A stretch of DNA of 41,132 bases from Pseudomonadota bacterium (lineage in GTDB: Bacteria > Pseudomonadota > Alphaproteobacteria > Acetobacterales > Acetobacteraceae). Within the stretch, counting starts at the first letter, position 1. Each line of letters opens with the position of its first letter. The stretch lies in assembly GCA_021805545.1 (NCBI GenBank), contig JAJZFB010000032.1:1-41132 (forward strand). The letters run 5' to 3'. Under the pieces are notes generated by a model, which did no database searches, was not told the DNA's origin, and saw only the letters and a list, made by a program, of their open reading frames with translations. The translations under genes were made by a program, and so were the position numbers. Shown here piece after piece: positions 17,329 to 41,132 of this stretch.

Positions 17329-17340
17329 ACCAGGTTCAGG
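17324..17340. terminator. Palindrome containing both convergent stop codons
   Basis: CCTGAACC-A-GGTTCAGG is a perfect 17-base palindrome. Its two arms contain the TGA of the ABC-F gene and the TGA (read as TCA) of the Hint gene. It may act as a small shared terminator; there is no T-run. Confidence 0.5.
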
Positions 17341-20300
17341 CGCTTAAACGCAAATCCGGCACAGGCACCGCCAGAGCAGCCGCCGCATCGTGCGACAGGC
17401 ATAGCTCCTGCCCATTCAAGCCGCGCACGGTAATGTCCTGCGCCCGCACAGCAGGTGCCACGGAAATTTCGCACCGGAACGCATGGCGCCCGCTTGTGGG
17501 ATAGCTGTGCCTGCTGCCGTGCTCATACAAATGGCACAGATCATGGCGCAGCATGTTGGGCATGGTCTCGCCCAGCTTGCGGCCATGCGCGTAAATTTCC
17601 AGCACGGGCGGCGTCTCCGCCTGCCAGTCCGCCTGATTCTGCGCCCAGCCGCCGATAATGGCCACACGGCCTTCGCCCCGGCCTTCCACGGCAATTTCAT
17701 CCACATAGCCTAGCAGCAGGCCGGGCGCACGCCGTATTATGGCCTGCCGCGCCGCTTCCACCTCGTGCCCGCAATGGCGGAGCGGCAGGCACATGGCTTG
17801 CGGCAGGTCCGCGCCCGCGCGGGCGGCAAACGCCGCGCCCATGCCGAATTCGCTGGCCTCATCGTTAGGGAACAGGCTTTCAGCCGGTGCGCCTTCGGCG
17901 AAGACCAGATCGTGCTTGGCCAGGCCGAGATGGTAATAATGCACGCACTCCACGGCCTCTGCCTGGGTGATGTTGAGGCCATTGACGAGATGCCGCGCCT
18001 GGATCAGCACATCGCCAAATGCGAAGGCGTGGCCGGGGGAGACGTAAAGATCGGCCATGGGCAGATTCTCGCCCAGCGCGCCCGCCTTGATGCAGATGGG
18101 CAGAGCCAGCTTGTTGCCCGCGATAAACCGCCCGTCATAGGCCTGGTGGCCGAGGTAAAGCAGCTTTTGCGTGCCGCTGGCGGTGACCACCTCATCCCCT
18201 TCGGCCAGCGCCTGCACGGGCACTTGGCACACCGCGCCGCCACGCAGCGCTGCGATGCGCGTACCAGCGGCGAAACAGGTTGCTGGGACGCCTGTCCCCC
18301 CGCCTGATTGCACGATCAGCGTTAACGGATCGCTCAACGGGGTTAGCGGGTTGGCGTACGATGTGTCGGACGCCAGAAAATCCTGCATCGTTACGCTGTA
18401 AGTGCCCGCCTGCAGATCAACCGTGCCGGTCTGCCACGCCCCATCGAGGTTACCAGCAGCCGTGGTGAAGGTGGAATAAGATGAAGAGCTGATCTCGATG
18501 CGGGCAACGTCTCCGGCATTCACCTTGTTGCTGTAGACATTAATCCCGTTTGTGGTGGTAACACCGTTCTGCACTGTGGTGGTGAGCGTGCGGTTCTCGC
18601 CGGTCCAGGCGAAATTGAGCACCTCATCTGTGGTCGTAACAACATTACCGCTTGTGCCCGCCTGGTTACCCAGAGCGATAAAAGTGCCGCCAGTGGCGAT
18701 TGTGCCAACAACGGGCGAGAAGGGAATGGCCAAACCATCGACAAGAGACGCCGAGCTGTTGATGGTGAGCAGCGCCGGGTTGCTGGCCGTGGCATCGGAA
18801 CCCGCCAGATTATAGGTGAGGGAGTTAACATATTGCGGTGGCTGCTGCCCCGATGTGCCGCTCACCCCGCCCAGCCCGTCCACGGCAGCGGCATTGCTTT
18901 GGCCGCCATAATTGGGGTTGAGCAATTGCACCGGCGCGGAAATGGTGCCGCCGGTGATGGTTTCGCCAAGTATGTTGGGCGAGTTGGCGCCATTGGCGGC
19001 AACAATGCCGTTGCTGATGGTGCCGCCGCTAATTCCGCCAGCGGTGAGTGTGGCGTTGACGATAAGGCCGCTCGTCTCTGTCGTGCCGCCGGTGATGAGC
19101 CAGGAGCTGCTGCCGCTGGCGGTGAAACCGCCGACAATGCCGTCAGTAATCGTGCCCGTGGTGACGGTGCCCGCGGATAAAGTGCCATCGTTGAGCACGC
19201 CGCCGCTAAGCTCAGAGGCGCTGACCGCGGTATCGGTATCGCTGGCGCCCTGCAACGTGCCGCCCATGACAATGCCGCTGCTGAGCGTAATATTGGTGAC
19301 GGTGGCCCCCGCGAGGGTGCCGCTGGTGATGGTGCCGCCCAGCAGCGTGCCGTTAGACACATCGGCCCCGGAGATGGTAACGCCGGTGATGGTGCCGCCA
19401 TTGGCGGTGAGGGTTCCCGCCGCGCTGGAAATGGTGCCGCCAATGACACTGCCCTGCGAAATGGTGCCGGTGTTGCTGGTGGTCGGGCTGGCGGCTGTCA
19501 TATACAGGTCGAATGTCTTGGCGCCGCCGCTATTCGCCTCGGTCACCTGGAACCAGGTGACACCGCCAGAGGCATTCAGCGGCAGATTTTGGATCTGCAT
19601 GGCCCCCACCGGCTCGGCACCGCCAGCCGCCGCCGCCGTATAACCGCCGCCAGCCAGCGTCTCGATGGCCCAATTCTGCCAAAGGCCTGGCCCCGTATCG
19701 CTTTGCAGAGTCACCACGGTAAAGCTGGGGTGCCCGCCCGTATCGGAGGTCATGATACCAAGCTCGATCGTGCTGTTGGCAGACAGAACGACACCGGCAT
19801 TGGTGCCGTCGCTGGCGGCGAAGTCGAGGACGATATTGTCGCTGCTCAGCCCGGCGGGGATGGCGTAGGTTCCACTTGGCGGCGTGATGATATTGTTGAT
19901 CGCGGGGGTGGTGTAGCCCGTGGGCTGATCGTTCGGCCCGAAAATCGTGAGGCTGAGCGCTGGCACATCCGTCGACGTGCCTGGCTCGGCAAGTGAGATG
20001 AGCGGGCCGCCTGAGGTATAGGCCGCCGTTTGCGCGTCTGAATAGCCATAGCCGTAGGAATTGGAGTTATCGCCGATAACCGCCGCGTAAGAGTTATAGT
20101 ATTGAGATACCGTTGGATGCGCGACGAGGCTCTGGCCAAACGCCTCGGCGGGGTCCCAATTATAGCTCTGGTTGAGGTCGATTGTACTGTTGGCCAGGGT
20201 TGTGCCGCCAAGCTGGGCATTGATGGGCTGCCCCGTGGACCCGAAATAACCGGCATTGAACCCAACCAGGAGCTCGCGCAGTACCGCCCCCCATTGGTTG

Positions 20301-21259
20301 TTGGCACCGGTATTCATGGTCTCGAACGGCACCGAGGTAATCGTGGTCTGGCCGTTTACAAGCGTGGTGGAGATACTCGCATAAATATCGGCCGTGCCAT
20401 TGGTCTCGTAAATGCTGTTTTCGAGCTGTTGCGGCGTGAGCGCGATTGTGCCCTTGATTTCGCTGGATGAAAGCGGCTCCAGCAGGAATAAATTACTGGC
20501 TGTGTCCCACACAAGATCATAAGCGTAATAGCCGGCGTTATGGTAGGTTCCACCGGAATCCGCGGCGCCGTCGAAGAAACCCGAGAGCGTGATGCCGCTG
20601 CTCTGCGTGCCTTCCAGGCTGCTGACGTAATTGACCCAGTCGCTCGGCGCGCTGGGCGGCACCGCCATCTGGAACGTGCCGTTCAGCGGACCGGAACTGT
20701 AGGTGGAAATGCTTGAGCCAGCCGATGTGAGGCCACTGACAATGGATGCCCCGCTGACATTATAGCCTGAGCTGGCCGTGCTGCCATTGCTGTAGCTTAC
20801 GCCAAGCGCCATTGGCAGGCCATATTCCACCACCGAGGTCAGGTTGCCCGCATCATAAGCCGTGCCGGTCAAGTTGGCTTCTATCGAGTCGTATCCAAAA
20901 TTATATTGCGTTGCGCTCTGCGCGTTAATCTGGCTCTGCAGGGTAATGATGTTAGAGAGCGACTCGTTCGTGGCCGAGCTTTCGACGATCACATAAATTT
21001 TACCGCTGGCAAACGAACCAGGCAACGAAATCGTATCGGCGGCCGTGCCGGTCAGGCTGCTATCGATGTTCACCGGGGTTCCGCCGGTCACTGTGCCGTC
21101 TATGGCGAGCGTTGCCCAGTCGCTGGAACCAGCGAGATTCACGGCGGCTGTCGAGGCCGCATCGAAAGCAACAACATAAACGGCGGAGAACCCCGTGCCG
21201 TTGGTCTTCAATTCATCGAGCAATGTGCTGCTAAGTGTGACATCCAAAGCCGTCGTCAT
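17336..21259 (-). CDS. Large protein: GH64-like N-terminus, beta-helix-like repeats, Hint domain
   Basis: The 1307 residues fall into four parts. (a) Residues about 1-590 contain YDSIEANLTG near 124, VVEYGLPMALGVSY, and NSYAAVIGDNSNSYGYGYSD near 388. These resemble the thaumatin-like GH64 beta-1,3-glucanase fold; of the two catalytic acids one looks like Glu (DSIE) and the other may be Glu instead of Asp. (b) Residues about 598-800 are a Gly/Thr/Ile repeat block (GTISQG, GGTIT, GTLSAG) typical of a beta-helix. (c) A Hint_2 domain starts at Cys995 (CFAAGTRIAAL) with DLYVSPGHAFAF. (d) The C-terminal module (GGWAQNQADWQ to GRHAFRCEIS) is common in Acetobacteraceae surface proteins. No signal peptide is visible, so export would need another route. 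Hint call firm; GH64 call moderate. Confidence 0.75.
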   Translation of the reverse strand: MTTALDVTLSSTLLDELKTNGTGFSAVYVVAFDAASTAAVNLAGSSDWATLAIDGTVTGGTPVNIDSSLTGTAADTISLPGSFASGKIYVIVESSATNESLSNIITLQSQINAQSATQYNFGYDSIEANLTGTAYDAGNLTSVVEYGLPMALGVSYSNGSTASSGYNVSGASIVSGLTSAGSSISTYSSGPLNGTFQMAVPPSAPSDWVNYVSSLEGTQSSGITLSGFFDGAADSGGTYHNAGYYAYDLVWDTASNLFLLEPLSSSEIKGTIALTPQQLENSIYETNGTADIYASISTTLVNGQTTITSVPFETMNTGANNQWGAVLRELLVGFNAGYFGSTGQPINAQLGGTTLANSTIDLNQSYNWDPAEAFGQSLVAHPTVSQYYNSYAAVIGDNSNSYGYGYSDAQTAAYTSGGPLISLAEPGTSTDVPALSLTIFGPNDQPTGYTTPAINNIITPPSGTYAIPAGLSSDNIVLDFAASDGTNAGVVLSANSTIELGIMTSDTGGHPSFTVVTLQSDTGPGLWQNWAIETLAGGGYTAAAAGGAEPVGAMQIQNLPLNASGGVTWFQVTEANSGGAKTFDLYMTAASPTTSNTGTISQGSVIGGTISSAAGTLTANGGTITGVTISGADVSNGTLLGGTITSGTLAGATVTNITLSSGIVMGGTLQGASDTDTAVSASELSGGVLNDGTLSAGTVTTGTITDGIVGGFTASGSSSWLITGGTTETSGLIVNATLTAGGISGGTISNGIVAANGANSPNILGETITGGTISAPVQLLNPNYGGQSNAAAVDGLGGVSGTSGQQPPQYVNSLTYNLAGSDATASNPALLTINSSASLVDGLAIPFSPVVGTIATGGTFIALGNQAGTSGNVVTTTDEVLNFAWTGENRTLTTTVQNGVTTTNGINVYSNKVNAGDVARIEISSSSYSTFTTAAGNLDGAWQTGTVDLQAGTYSVTMQDFLASDTSYANPLTPLSDPLTLIVQSGGGTGVPATCFAAGTRIAALRGGAVCQVPVQALAEGDEVVTASGTQKLLYLGHQAYDGRFIAGNKLALPICIKAGALGENLPMADLYVSPGHAFAFGDVLIQARHLVNGLNITQAEAVECVHYYHLGLAKHDLVFAEGAPAESLFPNDEASEFGMGAAFAARAGADLPQAMCLPLRHCGHEVEAARQAIIRRAPGLLLGYVDEIAVEGRGEGRVAIIGGWAQNQADWQAETPPVLEIYAHGRKLGETMPNMLRHDLCHLYEHGSRHSYPTSGRHAFRCEISVAPAVRAQDITVRGLNGQELCLSHDAAAALAVPVPDLRLSA

Positions 21260-28569: not shown

Positions 28570-29925
28570 GTGACAGCTAAAACATTCCGCCGGATGATTA
28601 TAACCGCATCTTTATGCGCGGGCACGCTGGCGGCCCCGCAGGCCAAGGCGATTCCGGCTTTTGCCGCGCAGACGGGCGAGCCGTGCTCGGCCTGCCATAT
28701 CGGGTTTCCGCAGCTCACCGCCTATGGCCGTTTGTTTAAGCTGCAAGGTTATGTGGCGGGCGGCCATACGCCCACCTTCAAAAATCTCGCCGCGATGATT
28801 CAGGCGGGCTATACTTACCTGGGCAAGAGCGTTCCTGGCGGGCTGGCACCGGATTATCCGGATAACAACGCCGTCTCGGCGCAGCAGATAAGCCTGTTTT
28901 ACGGCGGCGCGCTTTATGCGCCCATTGGGCTGGGGGCCTTTGTACAGGGCACGTTTGATGGTGTAGCGCATCAGTTCCACTGGGATAATCTCGATATCCG
29001 CCTGGCACGGCCGGCACAGGCTTTTGGTATGCCGCTTTATTATGGCTTTACCTTCAACAACAACCCTGGCGTGACCGATTTGTGGAATACGCCGCCAGCC
29101 TGGGGGTATCCGTATATTGCCGATGAGCTTGGCGTGGGCAACGCCGCGGGAGTGCAACTGAGCTCGCTGGGGCAAAGCGTGTATGGCGCGGGGGCTTATG
29201 CCGCGCTTAACATTACGCCTTCGAACATGCTGTACGCCGAGATGGATTTGTACGAGCCTGTACCCAACCACACCGCCTACGCGCTGGGGGTGGGACCGGA
29301 AGTGCCGATTAGCGGTGTTATACCGTATTGGCGCATAGCCTTGCAGCATAGCTGGGGTGCCAGCTCGCTGGAGGTTGGCGCGCTGGGGCTTATCGATAAC
29401 CCCTACCCTGCCGGCTACATGCACGGGCCAAGCGACCAGATTGTGGATGTGGGGCTGGATTCGCAGTTTCAGTGGATCACGCTCAACCACGCGCTCTCGC
29501 TGCAGGCGCTTTATGTGCATGAAACCCAGCATTGGGATGCCAGCTACGCGCTGGGCCAGGCCAGCAACCCCACGGACCGGCTGGATGAGGTGACGCTGAC
29601 GGCTTCTTACCTGTATAAGCAATGGCTGGGCTTTACTGAAAGTTACACGGGTATTACGGGCAATGCCGACCCGGCGCTGTATGCGCCAGCACCAGTTGCC
29701 GGCAGCGCCAATGGCAAGCCAAACACCACTAGCTTTACCACCGAGCTTGATTATTACCCCTGGAATGATGGCGGCCCGGCTTTTTTTCCCTGGATGAACG
29801 CCAAGTTTTTTGTTGAGAATACGTATTACCCGGTATTTAACGGGCTGGCGCATAATTACGATGGGTATGGGCGCAATGCCAGCGGCAATGATGTGCTGTT
29901 TGCCGGAATTTGGCTGGTCTTTTAA
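28570..29925 (+). CDS. Cyc2-like outer-membrane monoheme cytochrome-porin
   Basis: This 451-residue exported protein has a signal peptide (residues 1-27, ending AKA). Directly after it comes IPAFAAQTGEPCSACHIGFPQLTAYGRLFK, which contains one heme site, Cys39-S-A-Cys42-His43. The remainder is beta-rich with alternating hydrophobic residues and ends in Phe (LFAGIWLVF), as expected for an outer-membrane barrel inserted by BAM. A heme plug fused to a porin, with the AQTG...C..CH...PQL..YGR.FK.QGY pattern, is the architecture of Cyc2, the outer-membrane iron oxidase of Acidithiobacillus and Gallionella-type bacteria. GTG 28570 is preceded by AGGAG at 8 bases. It is followed after 15 bases by a periplasmic cytochrome c. 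Iron oxidation itself is inference. Confidence 0.75.
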   Translation: MTAKTFRRMIITASLCAGTLAAPQAKAIPAFAAQTGEPCSACHIGFPQLTAYGRLFKLQGYVAGGHTPTFKNLAAMIQAGYTYLGKSVPGGLAPDYPDNNAVSAQQISLFYGGALYAPIGLGAFVQGTFDGVAHQFHWDNLDIRLARPAQAFGMPLYYGFTFNNNPGVTDLWNTPPAWGYPYIADELGVGNAAGVQLSSLGQSVYGAGAYAALNITPSNMLYAEMDLYEPVPNHTAYALGVGPEVPISGVIPYWRIALQHSWGASSLEVGALGLIDNPYPAGYMHGPSDQIVDVGLDSQFQWITLNHALSLQALYVHETQHWDASYALGQASNPTDRLDEVTLTASYLYKQWLGFTESYTGITGNADPALYAPAPVAGSANGKPNTTSFTTELDYYPWNDGGPAFFPWMNAKFFVENTYYPVFNGLAHNYDGYGRNASGNDVLFAGIWLVF

Positions 29926-29940
29926 CCAATGGAGAAAGAC

Positions 29941-30327
29941 ATGACAATGATACGGAATATCGCGCTGGCGGCACTGCTGGCACAGCTTGCCAGTGTTGGC
30001 GCGGCACAGGCGGCGGGCAGTGTTAGCGCGGGCGCGCAAGTATACGCCAACCAGTGCGCCATGTGCCATTCCAACCAGCCGGGTGGGCAGGGCATTGGTC
30101 CCAGCCTGGCCGGTGTGTATGGCAAGCCCGCCGCCTCGCAGGCCGGGTATGATTTTTCTCCGGCGCTGAAGGCCGCGCATCTCATCTGGAATGATGCCAC
30201 GCTGAACAAATTCCTCGCGGCACCGCAAGCAACCGTACCGGGCACCAAAATGCCCTATGCGGGGCTGACCAACGCGGCCCAGCGCGCCAATGTGATCGCG
30301 TATCTGGCCTCCATCGCCAACCCCTAG
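29941..30327 (+). CDS. Periplasmic class I cytochrome c
   Basis: This 128-residue exported cytochrome has a signal peptide (residues about 1-25, GAAQAAG). The heme motif is Cys39-A-M-Cys42-His43 and the distal ligand is Met104 in GTKMPYAG, with the IGPSLAGVYGK segment of cytochrome c2/c-550-like proteins. GGAGAAAG precedes ATG 29941. It is co-transcribed with the Cyc2-like gene and could receive electrons from it in the periplasm. Confidence 0.92.
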   Translation: MTMIRNIALAALLAQLASVGAAQAAGSVSAGAQVYANQCAMCHSNQPGGQGIGPSLAGVYGKPAASQAGYDFSPALKAAHLIWNDATLNKFLAAPQATVPGTKMPYAGLTNAAQRANVIAYLASIANP

Positions 30328-30332
30328 GTCCC

Positions 30333-30361
30333 GGCTCTGAAATCCGTTGGATTTCAGAGCC
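30333..30361. terminator. Hairpin after cytochrome c gene
   Basis: GGCTCTGAAATCC-GTT-GGATTTCAGAGCC is a perfect 13-bp stem with a 3-base loop, 5 bases after the cytochrome stop. No T-run follows directly, so the terminator role is inferred. Confidence 0.75.
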
Positions 30362-30480
30362 ATCACACTAGATCGTTTTGAAAAAACCGCGCATGTTTCG
30401 TGCCCAGATGAGGCTGGGGCGGCAAGAGCCGGGGTAATCCACCCTGTATGCGGAGAGCCGCCGCAATGCGGGAGGGGGCC

Positions 30481-32679
30481 ATGGCGGCAAGTTTGGCGGG
30501 TTTTCAAGCAGTACAGGATTATTGGCTTGATGCGTGGCAGCGTTCTATTCTGGCACTGGATGTGCTGCGTGAGCGGGGCAATATTTTCCTGGAGCAGAGC
30601 GCCAAGGAAGTTCCCCATGCCCTCACCTTCATGGCCGAGCTGGTGGCCGATGGGCGGAAACTGCCGCGCCCGGTGAATTATGCGCTGGTGCGCATTGTGC
30701 CGCCAGAGGGCGCCATGATTGACCCGGCGAAGACGCCCATTATCGTGGTGGACCCGCGCGCCGGGCATGGGCCAGGCATTGGTGGGATGAAGCAGGACAG
30801 CCAGATTGGCATGGCGCTGGCGGCGGGGCATGCGTGCTATTTTGTTGGGTTTTTGCCCAAACCAATACCCGGCCAGACCGTGGAGGATGTATGCTTGGCC
30901 GAGGCGCATTTTACCGGGGAGGTGGCCAGGCTGCACCCCGAAGCCGAGGGCAAGCCCATGGTCATCGCCAACTGCCAGGCTGGCTGGCAGATTATGATGA
31001 TGGCGGCCATGCGGCCTGGGCTGACCGGGCCCATTATGCTGGCGGGATCGCCACTTTCATACTGGGCGGGCGTGCGGGGCAAAAACCCTATGCGTTACCT
31101 GGGCGGCATGCTGGGCGGCACATGGCTGACGGCGTTGGCCGGGGATTTGGGCAATGGTATTTTCGACGGCGCGAATCTCGTCGCCAATTTCGAGGCTCTG
31201 AATCTGGCGAATACTTATTGGACCAAGCCGTTTAACCTGTATGCGAACGTGGATAAGGAACGGGAGCGATTCCTGGATTTCGAAACCTGGTGGGGCAGCC
31301 CTGTTCTGCTCAATGCCGAAGAAATGCTGTGGATCGCGCAGAACCTTTTCATCGGTAACAGGCTTTCCACAGGGCAATTGCGCGATACGGATGGCGTGCG
31401 GATTGACTTGCGGAATATAAAGGCGCCGATCGTGGTGTTCTGCTCATGGGGCGACAACATTACGCCACCGCAGCAGGCTTTGGGCTGGATCCTCGATTTA
31501 TACGAGCATGACCAAGAGATTTTGGAGAACGGCCAGACGATTATCTACACGATGCACCAGACGATCGGGCATCTGGGCATTTTTGTTTCCGGCAAGGTGG
31601 CCACAAAGGAACATGGCGAGTTTGTTTCTGCCATGGAGCTGATAGATGTGACGCCGCCCGGATTATACGAGGCGGTTATTAGCGATGTTGATGAAACGAC
31701 CGAAAACCAGGAGTTGATAAACGGGAAATACCTGCTCCGGCTTGAGGCGCGCACACTGGATGATCTTCGCGCGCTGGGCGGTAATGATCTGGACGATGAG
31801 CGGCGCTTTGCCGCGGTTTCGGCTATATCCGGCGTCAATCTGGGGCTTTACCGTACATTGATGGCCCCTGTTGTAAAGGCCATGGCCAATGAGCCGATGG
31901 CCAGGGCGCTGCGCAACATGCACCCCAACCGGCTCCGGTTTTCGATGTTCTCTGACAAAAATCCGTTCATGCAGCCGGTGAAAATACTCGCCGGTGCCGT
32001 GCGTGCCGGGCGCAAGCCGGTTGACGCCGGTAATCCGCTGGTCACGGTGCGGGAGGCCGCCTCGGCGCTTATCACATTATCGCTGCAAATAGCCAATGAA
32101 TACCGTGACGCGATGATGGAGACCGTGTTCCTGCAAACCTATGGCTCGCCCGTCTTGCAGGCGCTAGCCGGGTTGCAGGCCGAGCCCGGCAAGCAGCCGC
32201 GGCAGATCGAGCGCGATTTGGTCAGGGAACAGAATATCGCGCGGCTGCGTGCGGAGCTGGAACAGAAATTCGAGGCTGGCGGGGTGGAGGAAGCGCTGGC
32301 GCGCGCATTTTATTACATCCGCACCAACACAGGCATTGTGGATGAGCGCGGCTTTACGGTCATCCAGCAGATAAGGGCGGCACGCCCCGCCGGCAAACAC
32401 CTCAGCCTGGCGCGATTGAAGCAATTGATGAGGGAACAATATCTGCTCATCCGCTTGGATGAGCAGCGGGCCGTGAATGCACTTCCAAAACTACTGGTGA
32501 CTGACCCGGAAGAAATAAACGCAGCACTGATGGCACTGCGTCAGATTCTGACCGCGCCAGGCCCATTAACCACCGCGGAGAAGAAGCGCTTGGCGCATAT
32601 CGAGAAATTATTTGGCGCAACAGGCCGTGCCGCGCGGGTGAAAGGTGCGGGCACGGCAGCACCGAAAACCAAAGCATAA
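30481..32679 (+). CDS. DUF3141 family alpha/beta-hydrolase-like protein
   Basis: This 732-residue protein fits DUF3141, a family related to polyhydroxyalkanoate synthases. The N-terminal half is an alpha/beta-hydrolase fold with a possible triad: Cys165 (IANCQAGW), Asp325 (SWGDNITPP) and His364 (TIGHLGIF). A Cys nucleophile is what PhaC enzymes use. The C-terminal half is helical and charged. The reaction is unknown; an acyltransferase or thioesterase role is a guess. ATG 30481 is chosen because GGGAGG precedes it closely; ATGs at 30448 and 30466 are alternatives. A methyltransferase follows 9 bases downstream. Confidence 0.82.
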   Translation: MAASLAGFQAVQDYWLDAWQRSILALDVLRERGNIFLEQSAKEVPHALTFMAELVADGRKLPRPVNYALVRIVPPEGAMIDPAKTPIIVVDPRAGHGPGIGGMKQDSQIGMALAAGHACYFVGFLPKPIPGQTVEDVCLAEAHFTGEVARLHPEAEGKPMVIANCQAGWQIMMMAAMRPGLTGPIMLAGSPLSYWAGVRGKNPMRYLGGMLGGTWLTALAGDLGNGIFDGANLVANFEALNLANTYWTKPFNLYANVDKERERFLDFETWWGSPVLLNAEEMLWIAQNLFIGNRLSTGQLRDTDGVRIDLRNIKAPIVVFCSWGDNITPPQQALGWILDLYEHDQEILENGQTIIYTMHQTIGHLGIFVSGKVATKEHGEFVSAMELIDVTPPGLYEAVISDVDETTENQELINGKYLLRLEARTLDDLRALGGNDLDDERRFAAVSAISGVNLGLYRTLMAPVVKAMANEPMARALRNMHPNRLRFSMFSDKNPFMQPVKILAGAVRAGRKPVDAGNPLVTVREAASALITLSLQIANEYRDAMMETVFLQTYGSPVLQALAGLQAEPGKQPRQIERDLVREQNIARLRAELEQKFEAGGVEEALARAFYYIRTNTGIVDERGFTVIQQIRAARPAGKHLSLARLKQLMREQYLLIRLDEQRAVNALPKLLVTDPEEINAALMALRQILTAPGPLTTAEKKRLAHIEKLFGATGRAARVKGAGTAAPKTKA

Positions 32680-33264: not shown

Positions 33265-33287
33265 GGCGCACGCCAGCCGCGCCTTAT
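33261..33287. terminator. Hairpin spanning two convergent stop codons
   Basis: ATAAGGCGC, a 9-base loop, and GCGCCTTAT form a perfect 9-bp stem. The arms carry the TAA of the methyltransferase and the TAA (read as TTA) of gspD. It is a likely shared terminator. Confidence 0.65.
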
Positions 33288-35548
33288 TGCCCGCCAAGTT
33301 TCTGGCGCACCCCCTGGTCTGGATCGGCCGATCCAGAGAATGGCTCGCTTTGCAGCGCATTGGGCACCATGCTGGCATTGGGGAGCTGCTGCTGCATATC
33401 CTCGGTCAGGTCCAGCGCCTGCTGCTGCGTGCGGATGACGTGCGGCGTTATGAGCACCAGCAATTCCTCGCGCGTGCGGTTATTGTTCTGTGTGCCAAAC
33501 ACGCCGCCCAGAAGCGGAATATTCTTGATCCACGGCAGGCCGGAATTTTGTTGTGAATCATTATCAGATATCAGCCCGGCGAGACCAATGGTCTGCCCAT
33601 CTTGGATGGCGATGCGCGAGGTGATTTCGCGCTGCGTGAAAGTAGGAGAGTTGAGCCCTTTTGTAGTGACCGCGGGAGAAACGCCGCTCACGATCTGGTC
33701 GATATCCATGGTTACCAGCCCAGCGCTGCCCACATGCGGCGTGACACGCAGGATAATGCCTGTTTGCTGATAGTTGATGGAGTTGATAACCGGCGAGCTT
33801 GACGTGCTTATATCCTGTGAGGTCTGGCTGAGATAGGGAACCAGGTCGCCCACCTGCAGGCTTGCCGTCTGGTTGTTCAACACCATTAGCTCGGGCGCCG
33901 AGAGCACGCGCACTTTGGTGACAGCTTGCAACGCGGAAATGGCGAGAGGTGCTGCATTAGAGCCATTGCCAGAGAGTACAAAACCCGGGAAACTCGTCGC
34001 CAGCGCGCTGGTGGTGGCATTGCTCAGCACGGCATTGATATCGCCGGATTTGAAGAAATATTGCGTGCCATATTGCAGTGCGCCGGTCAGGTCCACCTCG
34101 GCGATTGTGGCGTCGATCTGCACTTCCAGCGGCTGAATGTCGATCTTGGCGAGCATGCCGCTAATCTGGCCGTCCTCCTGCGCCGTGGCGTAGATGAGCA
34201 GCGCGTTATTCTGCGTATCCGGAATGATACGAATACCGGAGCTGGCGTTGCCGCCGCCGGTGGAGGAAAGCGGGCCGAGCAAGGCGCTGGCGCTGCTGGC
34301 CGAGTCTGGCGGCGCGGCTGAGCTGGCACTGCTATTATCCGTGCCGCTGGCCAGACTGGTGCTGCTGGTGAGTGACGTGCCGCCGGCAAGAGAATTACCG
34401 CCCGTGAGCGAACTGCCCATGCCGCTGGTGCTATTGCCCATCATGTTGTCCGATTGGTCCGGCGTGGAAGATTGCTTTGCCGCGGGCGTGGGCTGGGCGG
34501 TTACATCGTTGGGCGTGAAGGCTTGCTGCAACAGGTAAGCGGCATCGTTGGCACGGGCATTGCGCAGGTAATAAACATGCCAATGCCGCACGGTTTCACG
34601 CTGCACCTGGTTAAGCACGGAATAAACACGCGAGGCATCATCCAGCTCACTCTGGTTGCGGGCGATGACCAGCACGCCGCTAATGCGCGTGAGCGGCACA
34701 ACGGAGACATTGCTTGCCACCTTACTATCGGTTTGCTTCACCAGGGCCTGCTTCAAGGCCGTGGCGAAATCCTGCGCGTCGCCATCGGCGACCGGAAATA
34801 CTTCGTAGGATTGACCCGCCAGCTCATCGACATCGAAAGCCTGGGCGAGCGCGACAAGCGCCTCGCGCGTTGCGGGATCTCCCTGGATGATGAGCGCGTT
34901 GCTGTTGGGGGCGGCGATAACGGCCCCGCCCTTGGCGACATAAGGCTGCAATACAGTGGCAAGCTGCTGCGCGGAGGTATAGTGGAGCTGCAGCACCGTG
35001 CCACCGCCCAAATCGGGCGCACTGGCGATGTTGGGTGTGCTATCGGCTTGGCTGACGGACATGACGCGGTAGATGCCATTGCTTTGTACCAGCGTGGCGT
35101 TGTTTTGCGCCAGCAACGTCTGCAATGTAGGGATAAGCTGGGCACGGGTAAGGGGCACCACCGTGCGCAGCGTGGCCGTGCCGGTCACGGATGGATCGAT
35201 TGTATAATTAACGTGTAATATGCCGCCCAGAATCTGGCTGGTGATGGTGCGTATGTCGGTATCGGCGAAGTCGAAGGAGATGTCGCCATTGGCGCTTACC
35301 CCGGTGGGTGGCGCAGCATTAGTGGCGGATGGTGCTTGCACCCCGTAGCTGGCACTTGGCAAAGGCGGCGAGGCCGGGTTTGCCACGGCGCCATTAACCT
35401 GGGCTCCCGGGAAAGGCTGCGGGATGGAAGGCCCGGGCGCTGACTGAAGAATCGGCGCCCCCGTGCGTGAAAGCGCCGGCGGTGGCGGTATATGGCAGGA
35501 GGCCAGAAGCAGCAGGCCAGACAGCGGCAGATATTTCTTATGGCGCAT
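33284..35548 (-). CDS. gspD: Type II secretion system secretin
   Basis: This 754-residue outer-membrane secretin begins with a lipoprotein signal (LLLLASC, lipobox Cys18). It contains the N0/N1 domains (ISFDFADTDIRTITSQILGG and PNSNALIIQGDP) and the secretin core with VRVLSAPELMVLNNQTASLQVGD. The carboxy region has TREELLVLITPHVI. Between N-domains and core, about residues 355-435 form a Ser/Gly-rich linker with repeated SLTSST, SLAG and SSASS blocks. It forms the outer-membrane channel of T2SS. It is the last gene of the minus-strand gsp operon and overlaps the preceding gene by 11 bases. Confidence 0.93.
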   Translation of the reverse strand: MRHKKYLPLSGLLLLASCHIPPPPALSRTGAPILQSAPGPSIPQPFPGAQVNGAVANPASPPLPSASYGVQAPSATNAAPPTGVSANGDISFDFADTDIRTITSQILGGILHVNYTIDPSVTGTATLRTVVPLTRAQLIPTLQTLLAQNNATLVQSNGIYRVMSVSQADSTPNIASAPDLGGGTVLQLHYTSAQQLATVLQPYVAKGGAVIAAPNSNALIIQGDPATREALVALAQAFDVDELAGQSYEVFPVADGDAQDFATALKQALVKQTDSKVASNVSVVPLTRISGVLVIARNQSELDDASRVYSVLNQVQRETVRHWHVYYLRNARANDAAYLLQQAFTPNDVTAQPTPAAKQSSTPDQSDNMMGNSTSGMGSSLTGGNSLAGGTSLTSSTSLASGTDNSSASSAAPPDSASSASALLGPLSSTGGGNASSGIRIIPDTQNNALLIYATAQEDGQISGMLAKIDIQPLEVQIDATIAEVDLTGALQYGTQYFFKSGDINAVLSNATTSALATSFPGFVLSGNGSNAAPLAISALQAVTKVRVLSAPELMVLNNQTASLQVGDLVPYLSQTSQDISTSSSPVINSINYQQTGIILRVTPHVGSAGLVTMDIDQIVSGVSPAVTTKGLNSPTFTQREITSRIAIQDGQTIGLAGLISDNDSQQNSGLPWIKNIPLLGGVFGTQNNNRTREELLVLITPHVIRTQQQALDLTEDMQQQLPNASMVPNALQSEPFSGSADPDQGVRQKLGGQ

Positions 35549-36077
35549 TCATTGGTACTTCATCGTCAAAACTGGAGCCGTTATTGGCGGGCATGATGCC
35601 AGGGGGATCGTCACCGGCCGCATCCGCGCCGGAAGCTGATTTGAATTGCGGGCGCAAGGTCAGTTTACCTTCAGGGCCAAGCACCACGACGCTGCCCGGT
35701 GAAATCTGTAGTACACGGTAACCGCTGATTATACCGTTGGCCGCCACAATTTGGGGCTTCTGCCCATCGGGCGTGAAAATGGCAAGGCGCTGACCACCAA
35801 TAATCATGATTGCCGAAAGCCGCGGCAGGCTTGTACTGGTACTGCTGCCCGGCTGGGCTGGCGGGCGCCTGTCCGGCTCGAAGAGCGGGCGGGCCAGGCA
35901 GATATCCGCCCATTGGCGGACGGCCCGAACCTCCATGCCGCCAGCCCCGGCGCGCGGCAGCACAACCGGGCGTAACTGGCGCAAATCGCCCGGCCCCGGC
36001 AGCAGCCACTCCGCAGCGAGGATAAGCGCCAGTACAGTTGCAAGCCCCGGCCATGCGAGCGTTAAGGTTATTTTCAC
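35538..36077 (-). CDS. T2SS GspC/GspN-like inner-membrane protein
   Basis: This 179-residue protein has one N-terminal membrane helix (TVLALILAAEWLLPG) and a periplasmic part with ARPLFEPDRRPP, typical of the GspC/GspN homology region. A small beta domain with LSAIMIIGGQRLAIF and GYRVLQISPGSVVVLGPEGK follows. It probably links the inner-membrane platform to the secretin. It overlaps gspD by 11 bases and gspM by 4. C versus N cannot be decided by eye. Confidence 0.75.
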   Translation of the reverse strand: MKITLTLAWPGLATVLALILAAEWLLPGPGDLRQLRPVVLPRAGAGGMEVRAVRQWADICLARPLFEPDRRPPAQPGSSTSTSLPRLSAIMIIGGQRLAIFTPDGQKPQIVAANGIISGYRVLQISPGSVVVLGPEGKLTLRPQFKSASGADAAGDDPPGIMPANNGSSFDDEVPMNAP

Positions 36078-36652
36078 GGCGCGGCCGCCCGGAAGCCAAT
36101 AACGGTGAAATTGGCCTGCAACGGCCGCAAACCATCGGGCACCATTTGCAGACTATTGGAAAGGCTGATCTGGCCGACAATCATGTAGGGGTGTGCCGTG
36201 CCTATGGCCTGGAGCAGTGCAACGAGTACCGGCCAGGATGAGGTAACGCTGACCTGCATGCTGATGCGCCGCAGCGCGCCTGATTGCTGAGCCGGCAACA
36301 ACTCCGCACTGTCGATATTCGTGCCCGCCTGGCTGGCAAGGATTTGCAGCGCCGATTGGAGATTGGCGCCGGCAATGGCATCGGTTTTGCCCGTGAGCAG
36401 AGCCTGGTCGTCATCCGTCTGCAGCCCAGCCGCGCTGACGGCCCGCCGCAGTGCTGGAATTTCGGTGCTCAGCACCTTCATTCTCACCGCGAGCACCTGT
36501 TGCTGAGACAGTTCCGCCGCGCGCGATTCGTACCAGCCGATAAGCGGCATGGCCGTGCTTATCCACAGCATTACGGCGGCGAGAATAGCCAGCGCCACGG
36601 CCAGCGCCTGGCCACGCCTTCCATCAGGCAATGTGTGGGGCAGGGCCATCAT
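36074..36652 (-). CDS. gspM: T2SS platform protein GspM
   Basis: This 192-residue protein has one membrane helix near residues 16-38 and a periplasmic coiled region, followed by the T2SSM_b-type ferredoxin-like domain (ALQILASQAGTNIDSAEL, LRRISMQVSVTSSWPVLVALLQAI). It is expected to pair with GspL in the inner membrane. It overlaps both neighbours by 4 bases. Confidence 0.85.
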   Translation of the reverse strand: MMALPHTLPDGRRGQALAVALAILAAVMLWISTAMPLIGWYESRAAELSQQQVLAVRMKVLSTEIPALRRAVSAAGLQTDDDQALLTGKTDAIAGANLQSALQILASQAGTNIDSAELLPAQQSGALRRISMQVSVTSSWPVLVALLQAIGTAHPYMIVGQISLSNSLQMVPDGLRPLQANFTVIGFRAAAP

Positions 36653-37671
36653 GGCCCCACCGACACATGCATGGAAAAAATATCGGCCTTACCATCGGCC
36701 GTGCGGGTAACGGGGGCGGTAAAACTGGGGTCGTGCAGCCCTTTGACGTTGGAGAGCAGGCCAATGAGCCTGGCGGCGTTGGCGGATTGGCCGTCAAAGG
36801 TCAGATCGCCGGATTTGAGGGTGAGGTCGGTGAGCCATGTATCATCCGGCAGGGCGTTGGTGAGTGTGGCGAGAACCTGCAGCGCATCGCCCGTGCGGCG
36901 TGCCTGGACGATGGCGTTTTGCCCCGCCGCCGCCGTAACAAGCTGCTGCCGCAAAGCCAGCGCCTTGCTGGCCTGGGGTTGCACGGCGGCGATGGCGCGC
37001 GCCGCCGCATCCAGCGCCATTTGCTGGCGGATGAACGGCGCCGCAACACACGCCACGAACAGAACAGCGCAGAGCACGGGTAAAGCCGCCCGCAAACCGC
37101 GCCGCTTACGTGGCTGGTTTCCGTCCAGCTCAATACGCCCGGTTCCGGTCTCGATGAAGGAGGGATTCAACCCTGACTGGGCAAGAGGCTGGCTCAGCGC
37201 CTCGACCACTTTGCGCGGCACGATGGAAAGCCGCAGGCTAACCCTGCCGCGCGCACGGTCTGGACGGACGGCGCCAAGGCTCCAGTAAAGCTCTTCAGCC
37301 GTGAAGGGGGTCAGCCGGTCCATCTCAAACCCTATGGCCGCCCGCAGGTTGCGCGCGGCGGCAATCGGCAACAGCACGCCGCGCGAAAGCATGGTGCCGG
37401 CGGGCAGGCGCAGACCAGTTTCGATATTCGGGGCGATGGTGGCGGCGGCGGTAGCCGGACGGTCCGGGTCCAGGCGCCGTATATTTGTTTCTGAACCGTT
37501 CTGGCGCAGCAGAAGCACACCCGTTATTTTTGTGCCGCCACCGTTTTCATCGCCGCTCATTCTGTCTATGGCGATAATCAACGCATCCTGCTGCCGGTTG
37601 GCCAGAAGGCCAAGGCCTGGAACCAGAGACCGCATTTGCGCAACCCACCAGACGCTAAATTCAGCGAGCAT
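36649..37671 (-). CDS. gspL: T2SS platform protein GspL
   Basis: This 340-residue protein has a cytoplasmic N-terminal part with PilM/GspL-like segments (GFEMDRLTPFTAEELYWSL), a membrane helix (LRAALPVLCAVLFVACVAAPFI) and a periplasmic PilN-like region (LTNALPDDTWLTDLTLKSGDLTFDGQS). It anchors the GspE ATPase to the membrane. ATG 37671 is preferred; a TTG at 37707 is an unlikely start. It lies 62 bases after gspJ. Confidence 0.83.
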   Translation of the reverse strand: MLAEFSVWWVAQMRSLVPGLGLLANRQQDALIIAIDRMSGDENGGGTKITGVLLLRQNGSETNIRRLDPDRPATAAATIAPNIETGLRLPAGTMLSRGVLLPIAAARNLRAAIGFEMDRLTPFTAEELYWSLGAVRPDRARGRVSLRLSIVPRKVVEALSQPLAQSGLNPSFIETGTGRIELDGNQPRKRRGLRAALPVLCAVLFVACVAAPFIRQQMALDAAARAIAAVQPQASKALALRQQLVTAAAGQNAIVQARRTGDALQVLATLTNALPDDTWLTDLTLKSGDLTFDGQSANAARLIGLLSNVKGLHDPSFTAPVTRTADGKADIFSMHVSVGP

Positions 37672-37733
37672 GGGGCTTGGCCTTGGCGGATATGGGCAAT
37701 TTAACAATTGGAGCGCAGCGTGAGGAAGCCATG

Positions 37734-38300
37734 CTAGTTACCGGTGCTGAGTGGCGCTGCCACAAGGTCTGGCCAGCTTTGGCCATCGGTGAATGTGAGG
37801 TGGAGCCTGACGAGTAAAGGCAAGCCCCTGCCCTGCCATTTGTGAGACCAAACGGGCGAGCCGCCTTGCACCGGCACCAGATAGGAGAGGCTCAACGATT
37901 TTACCCCCTGCGCAAGCGGTTCGATTTTGGGCGGCGGCGGTGGCGCAATGGGTATGCCCGCCGGGTGCGGACGGTAGCGCAGGATAAGCTGGCCAGAAGG
38001 CGCGGTGAGAATGGCGGCATCCGCCAGCCTGCCCTTAAGCCCCGCGCCCGCGGGCAGCCTGGTGGTGAATGCCACTTCGTCCGGCAGGCCGGCCATACTG
38101 CCTGGCAGGGCCTGGGTAATCAGGTGCGACAAGGCACCATCCATCGCGGCAAGGTTTTCAGGCTGGGTGGAGTTGCGCGAGGCGGCCGACCAGGCGGTGA
38201 GGCCAAAGCGGAAACTCTGCGCAATTCCGGCCATGACCAGCCCGAACACAACGAGCGCGACCATGACCTCCAGCAGGGTGTAGCCATCATCACGCCTCAC
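37734..38300 (-). CDS. gspJ: T2SS minor pseudopilin GspJ
   Basis: This 188-residue prepilin has the cleavage site G6/Y7 and the +5 Glu (GYTLLEVMVALVVFG), followed by a long hydrophobic helix and a beta-rich globular part (LSLSYLVPVQGGSPVWSHKW). GspJ forms the tip complex of the pseudopilus. It overlaps gspI by 4 bases. Confidence 0.85.
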   Translation of the reverse strand: MRRDDGYTLLEVMVALVVFGLVMAGIAQSFRFGLTAWSAASRNSTQPENLAAMDGALSHLITQALPGSMAGLPDEVAFTTRLPAGAGLKGRLADAAILTAPSGQLILRYRPHPAGIPIAPPPPPKIEPLAQGVKSLSLSYLVPVQGGSPVWSHKWQGRGLPLLVRLHLTFTDGQSWPDLVAAPLSTGN

Positions 38301-38653
38301 GCCGCTGGCCCCAGGCGCTGGGTGGAAAGGGTTACATGCCGGCTGCCGAAGCCCTCGGTGACCTGCACGGCATAGAGGGTAAGCGGCCCGGCGGACTGCT
38401 CCGGGACAATATCGATCTGCCAGGAGAAGCCGCCGCCATCATCGCCATGGGCACGCATGGGGCGCAGCGGGGTGAGTGTGCCGATGGAAGCAAGGCGCGA
38501 TTGCGCGCGCACCACCGCCTGCTGGTAGCGCGCGGCGATTGCTGTTTCCGCAGCGCCGTCGAACCCCGCTTTGTAAAGGACGATGGTTGCCAGCGCCGCG
38601 ATAACGAAGGCCGCCATCACTTCGAGCAGGGTGAAACCGTTTTCATTGTGCAT
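38297..38653 (-). CDS. gspI: T2SS minor pseudopilin GspI
   Basis: This 118-residue prepilin has the cleavage site G6/F7 and +5 Glu (GFTLLEVMAAFVI). Its small globular part suits GspI. ATG 38653 is favoured because it gives the short prepilin leader; a longer frame from 38761 would bury it. It overlaps gspH by 11 bases and gspJ by 4. Confidence 0.85.
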   Translation of the reverse strand: MHNENGFTLLEVMAAFVIAALATIVLYKAGFDGAAETAIAARYQQAVVRAQSRLASIGTLTPLRPMRAHGDDGGGFSWQIDIVPEQSAGPLTLYAVQVTEGFGSRHVTLSTQRLGPAA

Positions 38654-39032
38654 TGATATGCACCTGCCCGGTAAGCCAGTCCGCGTTAATGGTAACAATG
38701 CGTCCGGCATCGCGCAGCGTAACGTGCCCGCCGCTGGCACTGCCGTCTGGCGCGAAAACAATGCCAGTTGGCGGCGCGATGCTGACGCTGACGCCGCCAG
38801 GCAGGCGCGGCATGATGAAAGCCACGGGGCGGCCTTGGGCTATGGCCTGGCCACGCGCAATGCGCATGGCATTGGCAATATCATGCGCGGCCGCCTGGGT
38901 GGTGAGCCATTGGCTGCGCGGCGCGCCGTAATTGGTAATGAGCACCAGGATGATGGCCATGACGGCAATGACCACCAGCATTTCCATAAGGGTGAAACCG
39001 CCCGCGCGGCTGGCGTTACTGGGCGATGTCAT
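38643..39032 (-). CDS. gspH: T2SS minor pseudopilin GspH
   Basis: This 129-residue prepilin has the cleavage site G12/F13 and +5 Glu17 (GFTLMEMLVVIAVMA). The downstream AAAHDIANAMRIARGQAIAQGRPV is the GspH/FimT pattern rather than that of the major pseudopilin GspG. The start overlaps the end of gspF by 17 bases. Confidence 0.85.
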   Translation of the reverse strand: MTSPSNASRAGGFTLMEMLVVIAVMAIILVLITNYGAPRSQWLTTQAAAHDIANAMRIARGQAIAQGRPVAFIMPRLPGGVSVSIAPPTGIVFAPDGSASGGHVTLRDAGRIVTINADWLTGQVHINAQ

Positions 39033-40230
39033 TGAGGCTGAGCATGGCAAGCAAGAGCGAGGAGACGATGCCGGCAACGGCCGCGCCCATGAGCACGGTG
39101 ATGGCGGGCACCAGCAGCGCGACCAGGCGCTGCAGCGAGATGCGCGTACGCTCCTCATGCACATCGGCGGCGCGCAGGGCCAGCGGGCCAAGCTGGGCCG
39201 TGGTCTCGCCCAGGCGCAGCAAATGCACGAGGCGCGAGGGGAAAATGGCCGTGCGCGCCAGGGCATTGGCCATGCCCTGGCCGGTTTTAGCACTTTCCGC
39301 CGCCGCCTGCACGGCGCCCTGGGCGGCCATATTACCCAGCACATCCTGCGCCATGGCCAGGGCGCTGAGCAGCGGCACGCCGTTGATGAGCAGCATACCC
39401 AGGGTGCGTGCGAAGCGGGCGCCGAGAATCTCGCGGTTGAGACCGCCTATGATGGGCAGGCGCAACAGCAGCTTGTCTGCCGCCAGGCGCGGGCCGGGCT
39501 GGCGCAGGGCCTGGCGCGCCGCAAACCCCAACGCGGCCAGCGCCACCAGCGCATATGGCCCGTAAACGGAAACAGCATTACCCATACCCAGCAAAAAAGC
39601 GGTGGAGGCAGGCAAAGGCACCCCATTATCGGCAAAAAGCGGCACGAATTGCGGCAGCACCTGGGTGAGCAGCAAAATAATGGAACCTATGGCGGCAACA
39701 AGCAGCAGGGCCGGGTAGATCATGGCCGACTGCACTGCGGCGGCCATGCTCCGCTGGCGCTCCAGCAACCCGGCGATGCGCTCCAGCGTGCCAGCCAGGT
39801 CGCCCCCCGCCTCACCGGCGCGAATAAGTCCAACGGACAGGCGGGTGAAGCTGCGCGGCTCACTTTGCAGGGCGGCAGCCAAAGGCGCGCCGTCGCGCAC
39901 TTTCTCACGCACCCGGGCCATTACCGCGCCAACGCGCTTATTGGGCGCCTCTTCGGCCATCAGCTTCAGGGCCTGGTCCAGATCTTGCCCTGCGGCCAGC
40001 ATGCTGGCCAGTTCGCGCATGGCATCCGTAAGCTCTGTACGGCGCAGCGCGCCAATGCCGCCCAGTTGCAGCGAAAATATGTCCATCAGCCGCGTTGCCG
40101 GGCTGATGGACAGCACCATCGCACCGCCTTTCTGGAGCTGGGCGGCAATGGCGGTGGCGCTGGCGCCTTCGCTGACACCTTTCAGCAGCTCGCCGCCGCG
40201 CCCTAGCGCCCGGTAACGGAAGCGGGCCAT
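39016..40230 (-). CDS. gspF: T2SS inner-membrane platform protein GspF
   Basis: This 404-residue polytopic protein has two T2SSF domains, the N-terminal MARFRYRALGRGG typical of GspF, and three membrane helices (SAMIYPALLLVAAIGSIILL, YGPYALVALAALGFAA, VPAITVLMGAAVAGIVSSLL). It is the core of the assembly platform. It begins directly after the gspE stop. Confidence 0.93.
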   Translation of the reverse strand: MARFRYRALGRGGELLKGVSEGASATAIAAQLQKGGAMVLSISPATRLMDIFSLQLGGIGALRRTELTDAMRELASMLAAGQDLDQALKLMAEEAPNKRVGAVMARVREKVRDGAPLAAALQSEPRSFTRLSVGLIRAGEAGGDLAGTLERIAGLLERQRSMAAAVQSAMIYPALLLVAAIGSIILLLTQVLPQFVPLFADNGVPLPASTAFLLGMGNAVSVYGPYALVALAALGFAARQALRQPGPRLAADKLLLRLPIIGGLNREILGARFARTLGMLLINGVPLLSALAMAQDVLGNMAAQGAVQAAAESAKTGQGMANALARTAIFPSRLVHLLRLGETTAQLGPLALRAADVHEERTRISLQRLVALLVPAITVLMGAAVAGIVSSLLLAMLSLNDIAQ

Positions 40231-41132
40231 TTATTCCTCGGCCCGCACGGCGCGCAGCACTTCCTCAATGCTGGTTTCGCCGCGCGCCACGGCCTCCATG
40301 CCGGTTTGCAGCAGGGTTTTCATGCCGCGCGCCACCGCCTCCTGCTCAATTTCCGCCTGGTTGGCGCGGTTGGCGATCAGCCTCTCCATCCCGGCATCGG
40401 GCAGCAAAAATTCGGCAATGGCCTGGCGGCCGCGATAGCCGGTGTTGCGGCAGGCGGGGCAGCCTTGGGCGCGGCACATTGTTTCGCTGGCCAAATTGTG
40501 GCGCGCCCGCAGCGCCTGCGGCAGGGGCATTTCGGTTTTGCAGTCATCGCACAGGCGGCGCACCAGGCGCTGGGCCAGAATGCCGCGCAGCACGGCGGCG
40601 AGCAGGTAATCCTCCATCCCCATATCGCGCAGGCGGGTGATGGCCGCCGCCGCCGAGTTGGTGTGCAGGGTGGAGAGCACCAGATGCCCGGTAAGCGCCG
40701 CACGCGCCGCGATTTCAGCCGTTTCCAGGTCGCGGATTTCGCCTACCATGATGACGTTGGGGTCCAGGCGCACGATGGAGCGCAGCAGCGAGGCGAAACC
40801 CAGCCCGATTTGCGGGCGCACCTGGATTTGGTTGATGCCGGGGAGCTGATATTCGATCGGGTCTTCGACCGTGATGATCTTGGTCTGTTCCGCGTTAAGT
40901 GAGAGCAACGCGGTGTACAGCGTGGTGGTTTTGCCCGAGCCGGTGGGGCCGGTGACGAGCATGATTCCATTGGGCGCGGCCAGCGCGGTTTTCAACCGCT
41001 CGATCACCTGCGCATCATGCCCCTGGGCGGCGAAGTCGAAGCTGACAGCGCTGCGGTCCAGCACGCGCAGCACGATGATCTCGCCGTGCAGGCTGGGGGC
41101 GGTGGCGACGCGGAACACCACATCCTGCCCGC
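40231..41132 (-). CDS. gspE: T2SS ATPase GspE (5' end outside window)
   Basis: About 300 C-terminal residues of the secretion ATPase are visible, and the frame is still open at the window edge. Motifs are Walker A GPTGSGKTTTLY, the Asp box ITVEDPIEY, Walker B region IMVGEIRDLETAEIAARAALTGH and the His box STLHTN. A Cys4 zinc-type cluster (LCDDC and CRAQGCPAC) is intact. GspE powers pseudopilus assembly on the GspF platform. Confidence 0.95.
   Translation of the reverse strand, partial: GQDVVFRVATAPSLHGEIIVLRVLDRSAVSFDFAAQGHDAQVIERLKTALAAPNGIMLVTGPTGSGKTTTLYTALLSLNAEQTKIITVEDPIEYQLPGINQIQVRPQIGLGFASLLRSIVRLDPNVIMVGEIRDLETAEIAARAALTGHLVLSTLHTNSAAAAITRLRDMGMEDYLLAAVLRGILAQRLVRRLCDDCKTEMPLPQALRARHNLASETMCRAQGCPACRNTGYRGRQAIAEFLLPDAGMERLIANRANQAEIEQEAVARGMKTLLQTGMEAVARGETSIEEVLRAVRAEE

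Follow-up and report, generated by a model that had tools for sequence, protein, structure and literature searches.

The 41,132-nt stretch of DNA analysed here (the window) encodes a Cyc2-like cytochrome-porin and, on the same strand directly downstream, a monoheme cytochrome c. On balance, and with modest confidence, the pair is read as a Cyc2-type conduit in which electrons would pass from Fe(II) through the Cyc2-like protein and the cytochrome c to an aa3 oxidase, providing extra energy for a heterotroph; the conduit role is much surer than the electron donor or the direction of flow. The observation is sound, and published work had anticipated most of it. In 2023, Cyc2 homologs were described in Acidocella and other Acetobacteraceae and linked to Fe(II) oxidation and to a bc1 complex with defects (PMC10715153, in the part available), and an Acidocella genome (MAG 20) that 'may' encode a Cyc2-like cytochrome was described in 2021 (PMC8357290, likewise in part), so the branch, which the first-pass annotation had thought might be a little-studied one, is not unstudied. 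What seems new is a branch-wide loss of the Cyc2 signature Arg, patchy retention of the monoheme partner and a rusticyanin-like gene in the same genome. The available portions of those two accounts differ in that no mention of the Arg loss or of a rusticyanin-like gene was found in them.

The coding frame of the cytochrome c begins 3 nt after the stop codon of the Cyc2-like gene, in agreement with the linked periplasmic cytochrome c that had been claimed for the locus. The ATG at 29941, preceded by GGAG at a distance of 6 nt, is likely a better start than the ATG at 29929. The 66-nt region of the hairpin behind both genes folds at -27 kcal/mol (z -5.8); the hairpin has no T-run and is absent from the terminator-like listing of the window. 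A minus-strand ORF of 774 aa (28612-30936) spans the whole pair and is favoured by a crude GC3 gene call, and it is regarded as a shadow because the plus strand shows the homology. The annotated neighbours (methyltransferases, an ABC transporter, a P450, an amidohydrolase, a DUF3141 protein and a secretin) give no functional hint. Elsewhere on the minus strand of the window, a GspD-like secretin gene (Pfam) is followed by genes resembling the remainder of a type II secretion cluster (33284-41121), and a 1307-aa protein (17336-21259) carries a Hint_2 domain in its C-terminal half as its only Pfam match.

Table 1. Features of the Cyc2-like/cytochrome c locus and the rusticyanin-like gene of the same genome.
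Feature	Position	Strand	Description and basis
Cyc2-like monoheme cytochrome-porin gene, predicted outer-membrane protein	28570..29925	+	GTG start, 451 aa; homology and barrel model
Signal-peptide-like N-terminus, residues 1-27	28570..28650	+	Ends in A-K-A; judged by eye
Cyc2 signature region, AIPAFAAQT	28648..28674	+	Ala33 at the Arg position; alignment to published motif
Putative heme c site CSACH, residues 39-43	28684..28698	+	Followed by PQL (47-49) and GRLFK (53-57); sequence
Predicted 16-strand beta-barrel, residues 73-450	28786..29919	+	AlphaFold2 model and structure matches
GGAG, likely ribosome-binding site of ATG 29941	29931..29934	+	Inferred from sequence
Monoheme class I cytochrome c gene, predicted periplasmic protein	29929..30327	+	132 aa from ATG 29929; Pfam, NCBIfam and sequence
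Putative heme c site CAMCH of the partner cytochrome	30055..30069	+	Sequence
Perfect 13-bp hairpin, 3' of both genes	30333..30361	+	Folding
Rusticyanin-like blue copper gene	C27:3998-4786 (window genome)		Metal-transport P-type ATPase and DUF302 gene adjoin

Cyc2 proteins of Acidithiobacillus ferrooxidans and Mariprofundus ferrooxydans PV-1 are described as fused cytochrome-porin iron oxidases, and the PV-1 protein was expressed in E. coli in the same study (PMC8406198, available portion). Measured against that published description, the window protein resembles them in its signal peptide (judged by eye), its single N-terminal CXXCH, the PXL that soon follows it (CSACHIGFPQL), its 16-strand porin fused to a cytochrome domain in the AlphaFold2 model and its length, which exceeds the 365 aa given as the minimum for Cyc2. 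The only CXXCH lies directly behind the signal-peptide-like stretch, and the last residue is Phe, both as first annotated. No model of Pfam or NCBIfam matched the protein, and a sequence search for a solved relative returned none at a meaningful E-value. The AlphaFold2 model, built with 62 aligned sequences, has a mean pLDDT of 89.1 and a pTM of 0.85 and consists of N-terminal helices and a subsequent 16-strand barrel, the fold that the first-pass annotation had asked to see modelled. Confidence in the heme domain is lower than in the barrel, since pLDDT falls below 50 at residues 22-31 and averages ~62 at residues 31-40. In a Foldseek search, the best PDB matches of the model are porins (Omp32, chitoporin and OmpF), accompanied by AlgE and OprP, with E-values down to 6.5e-8 at ~10% identity and TM values of about 0.4-0.5. 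These porin matches agree with the published Cyc2 models, as far as the available accounts of them go.

Relatives of the protein are common. A Cyc2-like match is present in 59 of 200 genomes of the same family (E <= 0.001), many full-length and some partial, and at least 577 of at least 595 pattern-matched stretches in a scan of named genomes encode relatives; such numbers make the Cyc2-like family more than a chance resemblance. The best 80 of the at least 577 relatives were kept. Their top 21 rows, at 54-85% identity, are followed by Rhodospirillales, Rhizobiales, Nitrosospira, Bacteroidota and others at about 35-46%, and the 80 include Acidocella aminolytica, A. aromatica, Acidiphilium rubrum, A. 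iwatense and several MAGs. Among the matches listed, the nearest named relatives are Acidocella, Acidiphilium and unclassified MAGs. In wider samples, 88 of 398 genomes of the phylum matched at E <= 0.001, many only over the heme domain and the start of the barrel, and 52 of 369 genomes of the class matched at E <= 1e-8. A profile built from 29 outside rows, none of which belongs by code or name to the window's family, matches the window protein along its length (459 bits, E 2.5e-139), and one built from ten Mariprofundaceae-like proteins reaches the heme domain only (36.7 bits, E 5.1e-11). With both profiles, none of 200 shuffles scored, and among the 173 ORFs of the window only that of the Cyc2-like gene did. 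HHalign of alignment A1 against eight Mariprofundaceae-like proteins gives a probability of 99.1% (E 1.6e-18, 265 columns); we infer the Mariprofundaceae-like nature of this comparison family, whose members are anonymous. Cyc2 of A. ferrooxidans itself was not recognised in the phylum and class samples or in 14 neighbourhoods scanned for the rus operon. Together, homology, the scores of these purpose-built profiles, the heme site and the barrel model uphold the original assignment as a Cyc2-like cytochrome-porin.

In a tree of 90 rows, built by a quick method with SH-aLRT support and without bootstrap, the window protein lies inside a set of 20 Acidocella/Acidiphilium-type sequences (support 100), apart from the Mariprofundaceae-like and Gallionella-like rows. 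The published Cyc2 tree is larger, with 1,593 sequences. In the 90-row tree, the closest relatives of the window protein are ZJ1.bin73 and the same-genus genome G140. Two other genomes of the genus, G187 and G068, fall beside A. aminolytica and A. aromatica, which makes an Acidocella relative the probable source of the window. The alphaproteobacterial kin and a negative search of the window's own genome for RuBisCO are in line with the alphaproteobacterial heterotroph proposed at the outset.

The window protein differs from Cyc2 of A. ferrooxidans and PV-1 immediately upstream of the heme site. The motif AXPXFAR[Q/K][T/Y] upstream of CXXCH is described as unique to Cyc2, and the tree sequences of that study were screened by CXXCH or PXFAR[Q/K][T/Y] (PMC8406198, available portion). 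Ala takes the place of the signature Arg in 25 of 25 distinct proteins of the Acidocella/Acidiphilium branch, the window protein among them; 20 of the 25 come from the tree, and the remaining five were placed in the branch by 61-66% identity. The window protein and the rest of the branch retain the remaining core positions (P, Q, T, CXXCH, PXL and GRXFK). Outside the branch, the Arg is present in 104 of 132 distinct family proteins collected (104 of 157 overall), and its loss extends beyond the branch, since the 28 outside proteins without it include further Acetobacteraceae. Counts of 10/10 and 29/29 in the comparison rows were set aside as biased, the 29 having been chosen mostly from Arg-bearing rows; 104 of 132 is the fair count. 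Because the protein departs from the published signature rule, it is classed as a Cyc2-like variant rather than a strict Cyc2: the cytochrome-porin part of the first-pass Cyc2 claim stands and the strict signature does not. The variant probably works like Cyc2. No discussion of the Arg departure was found in the available parts of PMC8406198, PMC10715153, PMC10654088, PMC8790237, PMC8357290, PMC8223813, PMC8305228 and PMC4571130, supplements aside.

The partner cytochrome (P0002) matches Pfam Cytochrom_C (E 3.6e-12), and its best NCBIfam match is c-550 CycA at 71 bits, below the cut-off of 240. Cytochrome c4 is a diheme protein. The partner carries one CXXCH only and is thus monoheme, and it is not of the Cyc1 type that had been claimed, because Cyc1 of A. 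ferrooxidans is a c4 cytochrome according to the literature available in part; the Cyc1-like role is perhaps right. A monoheme cytochrome gene lies downstream in 16 of the 25 branch members. In 15 members, including the window and its two nearest relatives, the partner heme site is found 118-171 nt past the Cyc2-like stop codon. The branch partners are homologous to P0002, with 45-84% identity over 91-138 aa. A partner gene was not found next to the Cyc2-like gene in the other nine, which include the A. aminolytica and A. aromatica lines. Mono- or diheme cytochromes beside cyc2 in Acetobacteraceae have already been noted (PMC10715153, available portion). Across the 157 distinct family proteins, a heme ORF is nearby in 77, none is present in 69 and room is insufficient in 11. 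The nearest partner has at least two hemes in 20 of 47 proteins with the Arg versus 1 of 30 without it. A coupling of Arg loss to partner type was considered and rejected, since only four independent pairs on supported branches were left once kinship was allowed for (sign test p = 1).

Nine plasmid records contain a Cyc2-like match. On pACRY03 (NC_009469.1) of Acidiphilium cryptum JF-5, the pair ACRY_RS18645/ACRY_RS18640 belongs to the same tree branch as the window, also with Ala for Arg; its Cyc2-like protein is full-length and 59% identical to the window protein, and its downstream monoheme cytochrome c is 61% identical to P0002 over 102 aa. The pACRY03 copy differs in that the plasmid is typed conjugative and the cytochrome starts ~500 nt on. 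The intervening DNA, behind the full-length gene, repeats part of the sequence for the C-terminal portion of the barrel (L031:9402-9708). The Cyc2-like proteins of pACRY03 and CP084173.1 are identical from the heme site onward, and both records hold a c-type cytochrome as well as SCP2/U32 and PdxST genes in the same region, to which pACRY03 adds a ribonucleoside-triphosphate reductase. CP084173.1 is labelled Acidithiobacillus ferrooxidans YQ-N3, and its Cyc2-like protein and neighbours resemble those of pACRY03; the plasmid may originate from Acidiphilium cells accompanying the labelled strain in culture. The Cyc2-like copy of A. multivorum pACMV3 is split. The pair stands with SCP2/U32 and PdxST in three Acidiphilium-type plasmid stretches, two of which contain the reductase. 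The functions of SCP2/U32, ribonucleoside-triphosphate reductase and PdxST presumably suit low-oxygen life, and the region is possibly a low-oxygen cassette.

The window genome is a draft of 2.79 Mb and 97.75% completeness, in which an absence is not proof. It contains two heme-copper oxidase genes: an aa3 CtaD (TIGR02891, 693 bits), above its cut-off as is CoxB, and a CyoB-like quinol oxidase below its cut-off. In the single bc1 cytochrome b, the second His of the second pair is replaced by Tyr. In the Rieske protein, whose boxes are CALEGD and CPCDGS, both His ligands and one Cys of the disulfide are missing (all by eye). The cytochrome c1-like gene of the same operon (contig C75) retains its heme site. 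Comparable bc1 ligand losses are reported in Acidocella, and the window shares with the published Acidocella and other Acetobacteraceae the bacterial group, the adjacent cytochrome c, the defective bc1 complex and the proposed supply of aa3 (PMC10715153, available portion). Searches of the window draft genome for RuBisCO, HiPIP, a photosynthetic reaction centre and U32 gave no match.

On a contig other than that of the Cyc2-like gene, the genome encodes a rusticyanin-like protein. It aligns to rusticyanin structures (E 4e-14) and shares with A. ferrooxidans rusticyanin (PDB 2cak, 1rcy) the C-x4-H-x4-M spacing and an upstream His; the retained residues His, Cys, His and Met are what we take to be the type 1 Cu ligands of rusticyanin. 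It differs from the A. ferrooxidans protein in scoring 95.2 bits with TIGR03095, below the curated cut-off of 146.7, and in having a metal ATPase adjoining. Rusticyanin-like hits occur in 10 of 200 same-family genomes at E <= 1e-5, none above the cut-off, and the weak hits in G043, G076 and G084 resemble other cupredoxins. The Cyc2-like gene, counting a copy with an internal stop in G183, is present in 7 of the 10 genomes with a hit versus 52 of the 190 without (Fisher p 0.008, kinship ignored); at E < 1e-20 the figures are 4 of 5 versus 55 of 195 (p 0.027, kinship ignored). Three genomes carry the closest-matching type, namely that of the window, G068 and G114, and in G114 there is no Cyc2-like match. 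The rusticyanin-like gene was not found in G140 and G187, which are of the same genus and have the Cyc2-like gene. These co-occurrences hint weakly at a link between the two genes.

In the favoured conduit from Fe(II) to aa3, the barrel would sit in the outer membrane, and the small N-terminal heme domain would close its periplasmic mouth. Soluble Fe(II) would enter the pore and give one electron to a heme attached at CSACH, from where the electron would move to the monoheme cytochrome c encoded alongside and then to the aa3 oxidase, perhaps with the rusticyanin-like copper protein. Iron would thus be an added source of electrons alongside organic carbon, and the oxidase would be fed by the conduit, as the organism's own defective bc1 complex can hardly supply it. 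Section 17 of PMC10715153, a source available in part, argues the same route to the aa3 oxidase. Several points weigh against this reading: the Arg-to-Ala change, the nine of 25 branch members in which the partner was not found and the negative RuBisCO and HiPIP searches of the draft. The rusticyanin-like gene, below its cut-off, adjoined by a metal ATPase and not found in two same-genus genomes that have the Cyc2-like gene, also counts against it, as does the standing of Acidiphilium and Acidocella as Fe(III) reducers in the literature available in part.

That standing is the starting point of the main rival, in which the conduit runs outward at low oxygen and electrons from organic matter would pass via the periplasmic cytochrome and the Cyc2-like protein to extracellular Fe(III). 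For A. ferrooxidans, a role of Cyc2 as terminal Fe(III) reductase has been proposed (PMC10715153, available portion). The best support is the gene region of pACRY03 combined with the physiology of its host, since A. cryptum JF-5 is described, in accounts available in part, as reducing Fe(III) at any oxygen level, even without oxygen. The window genome itself fits this direction less well: no U32 gene was found in the draft, the bc1 complex looks incapable of passing electrons from quinol to cytochrome c, and the annotated neighbours of the pair differ in kind from the pACRY03 region. An outward flow is held to be unlikely, although it is the strongest of the competing readings. Less probable still is that the pair oxidises another extracellular reductant, such as reduced metals or humics, or protects against metals, without energy conservation. 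The spread of the family, which reaches phyla such as Bacteroidota among the matches listed, would suit such a role, as would the lost Arg, the metal ATPase beside the rusticyanin-like gene and the phrase 'perhaps other reduced metals' in PMC10715153 (available portion); against it, the nearest named genera among the matches listed are the acidophiles Acidocella and Acidiphilium, and the heme-domain core is kept except Arg33. We give very little credence to the view that the protein functions chiefly as a porin, that its heme is vestigial or structural and that it plays no part in respiration. Ordinary porins are its best structural matches, Arg33 is lost, the partner gene is missing from view in 9 of 25 branch members and the A. 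multivorum plasmid copy is split, but CXXCH, PXL and GRXFK are kept across all 25 branch members, and 16 of them have a cytochrome gene downstream.

Returning to inward flow from Fe(II), a bolder proposal makes the Acidocella/Acidiphilium branch a Cyc2 subtype with a function of its own, in which Arg loss would shift the tuning of the heme towards Fe(II) at very low pH and towards electron transfer to a monoheme cytochrome or a rusticyanin-like protein. Such a subtype would be the main supply of aa3 in heterotrophs with a dead bc1 complex and would have been missed by signature-filtered surveys. This proposal is speculative and rather unlikely.

A signature-based filter would lose the Acidocella/Acidiphilium branch. 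Cyc2 is in use as a marker gene for iron oxidation, and a branch that departs from the marker signature bears on the reliability of that marker. The branch belongs to well-known heterotrophs of acidic, iron-rich waters, and the pair offers a direct test of why Acidocella retains an aa3 oxidase with a bc1 complex stripped of key ligands.
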